From: Blattabacterium cuenoti
GTDB taxonomy: Bacteria > Bacteroidota > Bacteroidia > Flavobacteriales > Blattabacteriaceae
NCBI RefSeq assembly: GCF_014252435.1
Contig: NZ_CP059220.1
Span: 186,001 to 250,000, forward strand
Direction of reading: 5' to 3'
DNA length: 64,000 nt
A model generated the notes under the pieces. It searched no databases. It was given only the letters and a program-made list of their open reading frames with translations, and had not been told where the DNA came from. Shown in pieces: positions 57,598-61,291 of the stretch. The stretch's first letter is position 1. The number at the start of each line of letters is the position of its first letter. A program made the position numbers and the translations under genes.

Positions 57598-58752
57598 ATG
57601 TTAACCTATTTATTTAATATCGATTCTATTTTTTATAGATCATTTATTTCTTTTTTATTATCATTTTTTATATCTCATTTCTCTTATAAAAGAATTATAT
57701 GTTGGAATCATAAAACAAAAAATGGTATCAAAGAAAATGTGAGAAATCTTGGTTTGATAGAGGAAAAAAAAAAAATTGGAATTCCAACAATGGGTGGTTT
57801 CGTTATGATATTTTCTACACTAATTTCTACTATACTATTTTCATCATTACAAAACATATATGTTATTATACTCATTATTACTTTGATTTTTATAGGATTG
57901 ATTGGATTTATAGACGATTATATCAAAATAAAATATCATAATAAAAAAGGATTAAGTATAATGGGAAAAATATTAGGACAAACGATTATAAGTTTTTTTA
58001 TAGGAACTATTATATATTTTTATCCAAATTCTTCTATTCATCAATCATTTTTTGATAAAACAAAACATGGATTCCAAACAACTATTCCTATGTTTTCTCA
58101 AAAATATTCAAAAAAAGAATTTGATTATTCTTATATATTAAGTTGGTATAATAAAAAATTAGAAAAATATACATGGATTATTTTTATTCCTATAGTTATT
58201 TTCATTGTTATATTTTTTTCTAATGGATCCAATATCACGGATGGAATAGATGGATTAAATGCTGGTCTTTCTGCTATTAGTTTTGTCACTTTATCTATAT
58301 TATCTATAATTTCAAGTAATAAAATTTATTCTCAATATTTTCATTCAATTTATATTCCTGGTTTAGAAGAAACAATTATATTTTCTTGTTCTTTTTTAGG
58401 AACTTTAATCAGTTATCTTTGGTATAACTCCTATCCAGCTCAAATTTTTATGGGAGATATGGGTAGTCTACCTATAGGAGGATCAATAGCTATACTAGCT
58501 ATTTTAAATAGGAAAGAATTGTTATTACCGTTTATATGTGGAATTTTTTTCATGGAGAATATTTCCGTACTTATACAAATATGTTATTTTAAATTTTCTA
58601 AAAAAAAATATGGAATAGGAAGAAGAATTTTTAGGATGACACCTATTCATCATCATTTTCAAAAATTAGGATATCACGAAAATAAAATTTGTAGTCGTTT
58701 TTTTATCATACAAATAATACTTTCTATATTGGTATTTATTTTTCTTATATAA
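57598..58752 (+). CDS. mraY: phospho-MurNAc-pentapeptide transferase
   Basis: Integral membrane enzyme that makes lipid I. Ten or so hydrophobic helices. 'KKIGIPTMGGFVMI', 'GFIDDYIKIKYHNKKGLSIM', 'SNITDGIDGLNAGLSAI', 'MGDMGSLPIGGSIAI' and 'RMTPIHHHFQKLGYHE' carry the Mg-binding aspartates and the His motif. 384 aa; the 'KKFDYSYI' insert is typical of Bacteroidetes. Confidence 0.96.
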   Translation: MLTYLFNIDSIFYRSFISFLLSFFISHFSYKRIICWNHKTKNGIKENVRNLGLIEEKKKIGIPTMGGFVMIFSTLISTILFSSLQNIYVIILIITLIFIGLIGFIDDYIKIKYHNKKGLSIMGKILGQTIISFFIGTIIYFYPNSSIHQSFFDKTKHGFQTTIPMFSQKYSKKEFDYSYILSWYNKKLEKYTWIIFIPIVIFIVIFFSNGSNITDGIDGLNAGLSAISFVTLSILSIISSNKIYSQYFHSIYIPGLEETIIFSCSFLGTLISYLWYNSYPAQIFMGDMGSLPIGGSIAILAILNRKELLLPFICGIFFMENISVLIQICYFKFSKKKYGIGRRIFRMTPIHHHFQKLGYHENKICSRFFIIQIILSILVFIFLI

Positions 58753-58760
58753 AAAAATTG

Positions 58761-60130
58761 ATGAAAAAAGATTTAATCGTAATATTAGGAGGAGGAGAAA
58801 GTGGAATAGGAGCTGCTATATTAGCTAATAAATATGGATTGAAAACATTTGTATCAGATTCTGAAAAAATTCCCAATAAATACAAAAATATGTTAATTAA
58901 ACATCAAATTTCTTTTGAAGAAAAAGGTCATTCAAGGAAATTTATAATGAAAAAAGCGAGTAAAATTATTAAAAGTCCAGGTATTTCTGTCAAAAATTCA
59001 TTTTTAAAAAAAATAAAATATATGGGAATTCCCATATTATCTGAATTAGAATTTGGAAAAAGTTTTTTAAAAAAATCATATATCATAAGTATTACAGGAA
59101 GTAACGGAAAGACTACTACCAGCAAACTAATATACAATATATTGAAAAACAATCAAAAACAAACTGTAGGTTTAGCTGGAAATATTGGAAATAGTTTCTC
59201 CAAAGAAATTTTAAAAAAAAAAAAATTTATGTATTAGAGGTAAGTAGTTTTCAATTAGATGATTGTTTAAATTTTCGTTCGAATATTGCAGTTATATTAA
59301 ATATAACAAGAGATCATTTGAATAGATATGATAATAATATAGATAAATACATACATTCTAAACTAAAACTAGCAATATTTCAAAAAAAAGAAGATATTTT
59401 AGTTTACAATTATGATGATCCAATTCTTCGAGAAGGACTGATGAAATATGCAATCCATCCTCAATGCATTCCTTTTTCTATAGAAAAAAAATTACATATG
59501 GGTGCTTATTTCAAAGATGATAAAATATGGATTCAAAGTGGAAATAAAAAAAAATTCAAATTTTTGAATATAAAAGATATTCTTTTAATAGGTCATCATA
59601 ATATTTACAATGTAATGGCTTCATTAATTGTATCTCAAATACTCAACATAGATAAAAAATTTGTAATAAATACTATATCAAAATTTAAACCAATGAAACA
59701 TCGTATGGAGTATTTTTTTCATATAAACGGAATAACATTCATCAACGATTCTAAAGCTACTAATGTTAATTCCGTTTTTTATGCATTGGATAGTATAAAG
59801 GGACCCATTATATTGATTATTGGTGGATATGATAAAGGAAATGATTATCATGAATTGATCCCATTACTGAAAAAAAAAGTTAAAGCTATCATATGTTTAG
59901 GGAGAAAAAACAAAAAAATTATTAAATCTTTCGAAAAGATTATCGATTGTATTGAAGAAACCCAATCTATGAGAGAAGCTGTACGAATGGCATATAGATT
60001 TTCTTCGTATGGAGACTGTATTTTGTTGTCTCCTGCGTGTTCTAGTTTTGATCTATTCAAGGATTATAAAGAAAAAGGGAACAAATTTAAACAAGAAGTG
60101 AAAGAATTGTTCACTAAAAAGATGAAATAA
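58761..60130 (+). CDS. murD: UDP-MurNAc-L-Ala:D-Glu ligase, frame-shifted at a poly-A tract
   Basis: Adds D-Glu (made by MurI) to UDP-MurNAc-Ala. Frame one (58761-59237) gives 'LIVILGGGESGIGAAILANK', 'SPGIS' and the ATP loop 'SITGSNGKTTTSKLIY', then runs through 13 A at 59213-59225 to a stop. In the -1 frame, 'YVLEVSSFQLDD' begins at about 59228, and 'FINDSKATNVNSVFYAL', 'IIGGYDKGNDY' and 'LLSPACSSFDLF' continue to 60130. One extra A rebuilds a full-length, roughly 456-aa MurD. All other domains look intact, so rescue by slippage is likely. A TTG at 58758 could also serve as start. Confidence 0.88.
59213..59225 (+). other. poly-A tract (A13), frameshift point in murD
   Basis: Thirteen A in a row lie exactly where the murD frame changes. 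Fourteen (or eleven) A would keep the frame. The run encodes a Lys stretch in a surface region between the ATP loop and the SSFQL motif. Confidence 0.85.
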
Positions 60131-60133
60131 ATA

Positions 60134-61291
60134 ATGAAACTTGATATATTTATAAAAAAATATGTAAGAGGAGATAAATATTTATGGTCATTTATATCTC
60201 TATTATCTATTTTCTCTTTTTTACCTGTATATTCCGCAAGTATTAATTTAGTGAACGCATATGGATGTAGTTCTAATATTGTTTTTTATTTTTTATTCAA
60301 ACATACTTTGTTCATATTAATTGGATATGGTATTCTTTTTTTTTCTCAATTCATAAATTATAAATATATTTATCGTACATCTATATATCCAATTCCATTC
60401 GTCTCGATTTTATTAATTTTAACATTAATTCAAGGAAAACAATTACATGGAGTGAATGCATCTCGTTGGTTATACATTCCTATTCTTAATATATCTTTTC
60501 AAACTTCGAATATTGCTGGATTAGCACTTTTTATTTATTGCTCCAAATTTCTTTATCAAAAAAAAAATTGTGGTTTTATTTATTCATTGTTTACATTGTG
60601 GTTCCCAATATTTTTTGTTATAGGACTAATTTTACCCGCTAATGGATCTACGGCTGTTCTTATTTTTTTTTCGATTTGCATTTTACTTTTTATAGGTGGA
60701 TACCCAATATCAAGATTAATAGGAATTTTATTCATGGGAATATTATTTGCAACAATATACATTTACTCCGTTCTAAAATGGGGTGAAAACCAACCAGTTC
60801 ATAGAGTTTTTACATGGAAAAGTCGAATAGAAAAATTCTATAATCCATCTGGAGACAATTATCAAATTCAATTAGCAAAATCAGCTATTTTTTTAGGAAA
60901 AAAATTTGGACGTGGACCAGGAAAAAGTGTATTAAAAGCTTTTCTCCCACAATCCTCTTCAGATTTTATTTATGCTATTATTATAGAAGAATATGGATTG
61001 ATAGGGGGAGTTCTCCTTTTATTCATATATTTGCTTATATTACTCAGAATCATTATAATAGCAACAAAAATACAAAATTATTACTGTACTTTGCTTGTAC
61101 TGTCATTAGGTTTCCCTATAATTACTCAAGCATTCATTAATATGGGGATAGTGGTTGGATTATTTCCTGTAACAGGACAAAATTTACCTCTGATAAGTTC
61201 TGGAGGAACATCTATGTGGGTTACTTTTTTTAGTTTTGGTATTATACTTAGTGTCAGTAAATTAATAAATAAAAAATCGATAAGTCAATGA
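60134..61291 (+). CDS. ftsW: septal peptidoglycan glycosyltransferase FtsW
   Basis: SEDS-family polymerase partnered with FtsI. About ten membrane helices. 'VNASRWLYIPILNISFQTSN' carries the (G)ARRW-type segment. 'YQIQLAKSAIFLGKKFGRGP' and 'LPQSSSDFIYAIIIEEYGLI' hold the conserved Asp/Glu loops, and 'FPVTGQNLPLISSGGTSMW' the C-terminal signature. 385 aa. Its stop overlaps the murG start. Confidence 0.95.
   Translation: MKLDIFIKKYVRGDKYLWSFISLLSIFSFLPVYSASINLVNAYGCSSNIVFYFLFKHTLFILIGYGILFFSQFINYKYIYRTSIYPIPFVSILLILTLIQGKQLHGVNASRWLYIPILNISFQTSNIAGLALFIYCSKFLYQKKNCGFIYSLFTLWFPIFFVIGLILPANGSTAVLIFFSICILLFIGGYPISRLIGILFMGILFATIYIYSVLKWGENQPVHRVFTWKSRIEKFYNPSGDNYQIQLAKSAIFLGKKFGRGPGKSVLKAFLPQSSSDFIYAIIIEEYGLIGGVLLLFIYLLILLRIIIIATKIQNYYCTLLVLSLGFPIITQAFINMGIVVGLFPVTGQNLPLISSGGTSMWVTFFSFGIILSVSKLINKKSISQ

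Follow-up and report, generated by a model that had tools for sequence, protein, structure and literature searches.

Bacterial RNA polymerase slips efficiently on runs of at least nine A or T residues, and where frameshifted genes carry poly-A tracts slippage puts 12–50% of their transcripts right, cell-wall genes of an aphid symbiont being among the examples (PMC5009743). In Buchnera, genes that carry frameshifts in poly(A) tracts are rescued by transcriptional slippage, as outlined in PMC5009743 (its ref. 244), and poly(A) frameshift genes have also been described in Blochmannia (B. vafer; PMC3017870). At the homopolymers of Buchnera the insertions made during transcription outnumber the deletions; the same study nonetheless gives grounds for caution, as frame-restoring transcription errors went undetected in its survey of Buchnera and E. 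coli (PMC5574713). In the translational systems, it is the presence of tRNA-Lys UUU as the sole tRNA-Lys that makes the heptamer A_AAA_AAG shift-prone in E. coli (PMC5009743).

The preliminary description of the locus treated here had alluded to the rescue of poly-A frameshifts in other insect endosymbionts, and for Buchnera and Blochmannia such rescue is indeed established (PMC5009743, PMC3017870). Slippage-corrected poly-A shifts are known from these two symbionts; what is unusual in Blattabacterium is the breadth of the phylogenetic record. Our literature search, which missed many subscription papers, found no report for Blattabacterium of rescued poly-A frameshifts or of their clade-wide persistence. 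Here, we analyze the murD gene in a window of 64,000 nucleotides from the genome of Blattabacterium cuenoti (G000), and compare it with the same locus in related genomes. We suggest that its -1 frameshift is real and that full-length MurD is probably still made through slippage of RNA polymerase on a long A tract.

A murD gene divided between two frames

Direct reading of the sequence bears out the earlier claim that murD (58761-60130) is split over two frames, which join at a homopolymer of exactly 13 A residues (59213-59225) and require a -1 correction. The break sits in a lysine-rich stretch ahead of the VLEVSSFQL strand, and the C part, in the -1 frame, reads IYVLEVSSFQL... The N part corresponds to positions 2-149 of the NCBIfam murD model TIGR01087 (91.8 bits, its best match) and the C part to positions 154-440 of the 441 in that model (273.5 bits, against a cut-off of 211.95), so that almost no MurD sequence is missing in between. 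For both parts the best structure matches are solved MurD structures, the N part matching 3lk7 with an E value of 4.9e-14. The remaining genes of the peptidoglycan cluster had been described as intact, and this too holds, as murE, mraY, ftsW, murG and murC are each a single uninterrupted ORF within the window (Table 1).

Table 1. Features of the murD locus in the window
Feature	Coordinates	Strand	Basis and remarks
mraY, intact, upstream of murD	57598..58752	+	Named by gene order and earlier cluster assignment; orthologues in all relatives
murD 5' part	58761..59237	+	Zero frame from ATG 58761 to TAG 59235-59237; carries the N-terminal domain and the P-loop GSNGKTTT
murD 3' part, -1 frame	59195..60130	+	Reading frame open from 59195, with conserved MurD residues beginning at 59225; stop at 60130
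A13 homopolymer, frame junction, needs -1	59213..59225	+	Tract aligned with its counterpart in the 48 further Blattabacterium genomes
Zero-frame TAG stop shortly past the A13 tract	59235..59237	+	Direct reading
ftsW, intact, downstream of murD	60134..61291	+	Intact ORF; orthologue comparison with relatives

Recurrence of the shift and selection on the broken gene

The C part of murD was used to search a sample of 49 Blattabacterium genomes, G000 included, and from each of them about 8 kb around the gene was taken and the frames of the N and C parts were compared. The comparison among strains that had been proposed earlier proved informative: at the same tract murD is shifted by -1 in 23 of the 49 genomes (22 of the 48 besides G000), over uninterrupted runs of A9 (n=14), A10 (n=1), A11 (n=4), A13 (n=3) and A14 (n=1). 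The other 26 genomes have the gene in frame, with runs of 5 to 13 at the tract. Every shifted case is -1, and not one +1 murD occurs among the 49. The same search found no second murD in these genomes, its other matches being weak and attributable to other Mur ligases, and a backup copy was on this ground rejected.

On a tree of five neighbouring proteins (support values from FastTree), 20 of the 23 shifted genomes fall in one clade of 24 species with a support of 1.0. The three that lie outside it, G000 (A13), G030 (A10) and G015 (A13), appear to have acquired their shifts independently of the clade. Within the clade the tract itself is in frame in G042, G031 and G044, which are apparent direct reversions; the last of these, matched to Blaberus giganteus, has a run of A10. 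G046, matched to Nauphoeta cinerea, has retained an A9 tract and returns to frame by a 2-base deletion just downstream, a natural second-site reversion (on the reverse strand in that genome). Parsimony from an in-frame ancestor requires eight changes at murD, which we read as about four gains and four losses. To judge from host matches such as Panesthia angustipennis (G017, shifted, A9) and Blattella germanica (G042, in frame), the shifted clade appears to comprise the symbionts of Blaberidae and of part of the Ectobiidae, and from the relationships of these hosts its age is presumably on the order of 100 million years.

Beyond the break, pairwise dN/dS is 0.13-0.33 in shifted pairs versus 0.18-0.32 in intact pairs, and the N part of murD, mraY, ftsW, murG and murC give values similar to those of the C part. 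The gene is under purifying selection on both sides of its break. Together with the recurrence in 23 of 49 genomes and a search that found no second murD, this strongly supports the earlier proposal that the frameshift is tolerated although the gene is indispensable.

Other genes are affected in the same manner. When G036, a genome of the shifted clade, is compared with G000, poly-A shifts of -1 are found in mvaK (A10), miaA (A12), nadD (A11) and ung (A10), and one of +1 in truA (A14); these five genes were named from sequence alone. The nadD gene is shifted in 37 of 48 genomes, always at runs of A10-A11 near residue 47, with 29 copies at -1 and 8 at +1; the shifted copies include those of genomes matched to Mastotermes, Blaberus, Nauphoeta and Panesthia. 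Its frameshift (for example in G036, G044 and G043) is more widespread than that of murD (37/48 versus 23/49). In-frame nadD copies often have decayed runs such as A6 or AAGAAA, and the copy of G000, located outside the window (G000:C1:305415-306032), is intact. The mevalonate-kinase-like mvaK is shifted in 13 of 32 sampled genomes, among them G036 and G017, always at A10 and always by -1; judged from the length of the open frame, about 18 of the 49 have it shifted. It was counted among the pseudogenes of another Blattabacterium strain (PMC6039017). The cell-wall genes around murD have six sporadic single-species shifts, all -1 and all at A9-A11: murE in G003, G020 and G008, murG in G022 and G003, and ftsW in G025. 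One murE tract and one murG tract were each hit twice, in separate lineages. Stop readthrough was also considered in G036 and rejected, as the in-frame stops sit in apparent non-gene antisense ORFs.

Proposed RNA polymerase slippage and its rivals

The cell almost certainly corrects the murD frame in making either RNA or protein, and we infer that the correction takes place at the RNA level and leads to full-length MurD. As RNA polymerase transcribes the A run, the RNA-DNA hybrid would shift, so that part of the mRNAs would acquire one more A or differ in length in some other way. Those in which the frame is restored would yield complete MurD by ordinary translation, and translation of the remainder would terminate at the TAG that closely follows the tract. 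Small changes of length would probably be harmless, because the tract lies in a lysine-rich and length-tolerant stretch before the VLE(V/M)SSFQL strand. The shifted state may persist over evolutionary time, since one and the same long run causes the break and would also cure it; the state would end either through a correct number of A or through a second indel nearby.

When murD, nadD and mvaK are taken together, all 73 shifted copies carry 9 or more A without interruption, versus 37 of the 56 in-frame copies (Fisher 1.6e-8, a value that treats the copies as unrelated and ignores phylogeny). This fits the length reported for efficient slippage of bacterial RNA polymerase. In murD alone an argument from the absence of AAG interruptions is a weak one, given that AAG accounts for only 6% of the Lys codons. 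The excess of -1 shifts fits the predominance of insertions in Buchnera transcripts (PMC5574713); it could equally result from a mutational bias in replication towards the loss of one A. In the coding sequence of G000, in-frame A runs of at least 9 number about 495, as against 73 T runs of that length. If RNA polymerase slips on A9 and longer, the transcripts of many normal genes should also vary in length.

For murD itself the main rival, though an unlikely one, is -1 ribosomal frameshifting: a programmed or tolerated shift of the dnaX type at A_AAA_AAG or A_AAA_AAA would yield full-length MurD from an unaltered mRNA. The direction is right in all 23 shifted genes, tRNA-Lys UUU is the only tRNA-Lys found in the genome, and one of the two heptamers lies in frame at the shifted junctions, although any A9 run contains one. 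However, no downstream structure accompanies them, the mean z of shifted junctions being 0.13 over 60 nt and 0.34 over 90 nt against 0.10 and 0.21 for intact ones in a calculation of pseudoknot-free folds, and at the murD junctions no upstream Shine-Dalgarno-like stimulator was seen by eye. The heptamer needs just seven A, yet the runs of shifted murD are never shorter than nine. Moreover, the nadD copies occur in both phases and the truA of G036 is shifted by +1 at A14, and these cannot be cured by -1 frameshifting. Transcripts of variant length can cure both nadD phases, which -1 slippage of the ribosome cannot; it is this, with the lack of downstream structure, that leads us to favour slippage of RNA polymerase.

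A doubtful extension of RNA polymerase slippage would make the tracts a form of control. The out-of-frame murD and nadD tracts would then be kept as regulators of dosage, with slippage setting a fixed low functional fraction of MurD and NadD and selection holding the run at 9 A or more, out of frame, throughout entire clades of cockroach symbionts.

A sequencing or assembly error was the main alternative in the preliminary description, and it fares badly. Long A runs are error-prone, and the A13 of G000, being the call for a single genome, could by itself be a miscall. As an explanation of the murD shift, error is nevertheless very unlikely, for the same tract and phase recur in 23 species, down to A9, G046 carries a compensating second-site deletion, and shifted nadD is found in genomes from several separate publications. 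In G000, in-frame A runs of at least 9 number about 495 within the coding sequence that was aligned to a relative, and 87 of these reach at least 11; murD is the one gene in which a poly-A frameshift was found. The remaining candidates for ORFs split at A runs mostly look like gene boundaries. With so many runs intact and one broken, the break in murD is more than chance, and an error that happened to coincide with exactly this tract in G000 is unlikely. Error cannot account for the pattern shared among the genomes, and it was rejected as a general cause on the recurrence in murD and nadD and on these intact runs. The only other homopolymer frameshift found in G000, outside the window (G000:C1:533228-535917), is a -1 shift at T10 that splits a large gene, possibly encoding an AddB/RecB-like nuclease, whose orthologue in G036 has 890 aa.

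It is highly improbable that murD is a decaying pseudogene whose function has been lost or is supplied by another enzyme or by the host. Gene loss is common in symbiont genomes, and such genes have been labelled pseudogenes in papers on Blattabacterium, for example mvaK in one strain (PMC6039017). But the dN/dS of both murD halves equals that of intact genes, the gene has a single break, and among relatives the frame has been regained repeatedly; the reading was rejected on its dN/dS.

A pseudogene would be expected to show dN/dS drifting towards 1 and additional breaks. We reject as scarcely credible the last alternative, two separately translated chains of which the second starts just past the tract: both halves are long open frames, but in at least six species (G000, G005, G007, G015, G024 and G025) no ATG, GTG or TTG occurs from the opening stop to a point some 20 codons beyond the tract, in most other genomes the first start lies within the conserved VLE(V/M)SSFQL strand, part of which would be lost, and the split falls within the central ATPase domain.

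Significance and comparison with known systems

If the frame is corrected as we propose, an entire clade of symbionts can radiate while one of its essential genes remains formally broken. Automatic annotation would label such genes pseudogenes and in this way underestimate the metabolism of the symbiont, here that of cell wall and NAD. The locus amounts to a natural experiment, in which one site followed through 49 related genomes displays gains, reversions and a second-site compensation and has in nadD a companion with both phases. Drift and selected regulation could consequently be told apart directly, with RNA from laboratory cockroaches.

The closest known cases are those of Buchnera and Blochmannia. 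Like them, murD of Blattabacterium belongs to an insect endosymbiont with an AT-rich genome and is an otherwise intact cell-wall gene with just one indel within a long A tract, conserved between species; the features found here, one indel in a long A run, purifying selection and persistence across species, are among those of the slippage-rescued class. Unlike them, Blattabacterium is a member of the Bacteroidota, a different phylum, and its record consists of one site over 49 species with about four gains, three apparent direct reversions and one second-site compensation, the rescue being deduced from sequence.

The slippage systems of Thermus thermophilus dnaX (9 A/T) and Shigella mxiE likewise depend on a run of about nine or more, and there the product comes from a fraction of mRNAs of variant length, as we propose for murD. 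Those two systems, however, use two products or control a regulator, whereas the short product of murD looks useless and only the full-length protein is expected to matter. With the -1 frameshifting of E. coli dnaX, murD shares an in-frame A_AAA_AAG/A heptamer, a single tRNA-Lys UUU and the -1 direction. It differs from that system in that neither a stimulatory stem-loop nor (by eye) an upstream Shine-Dalgarno element was found at murD, and in that sibling genes of murD are shifted in the opposite direction as well.
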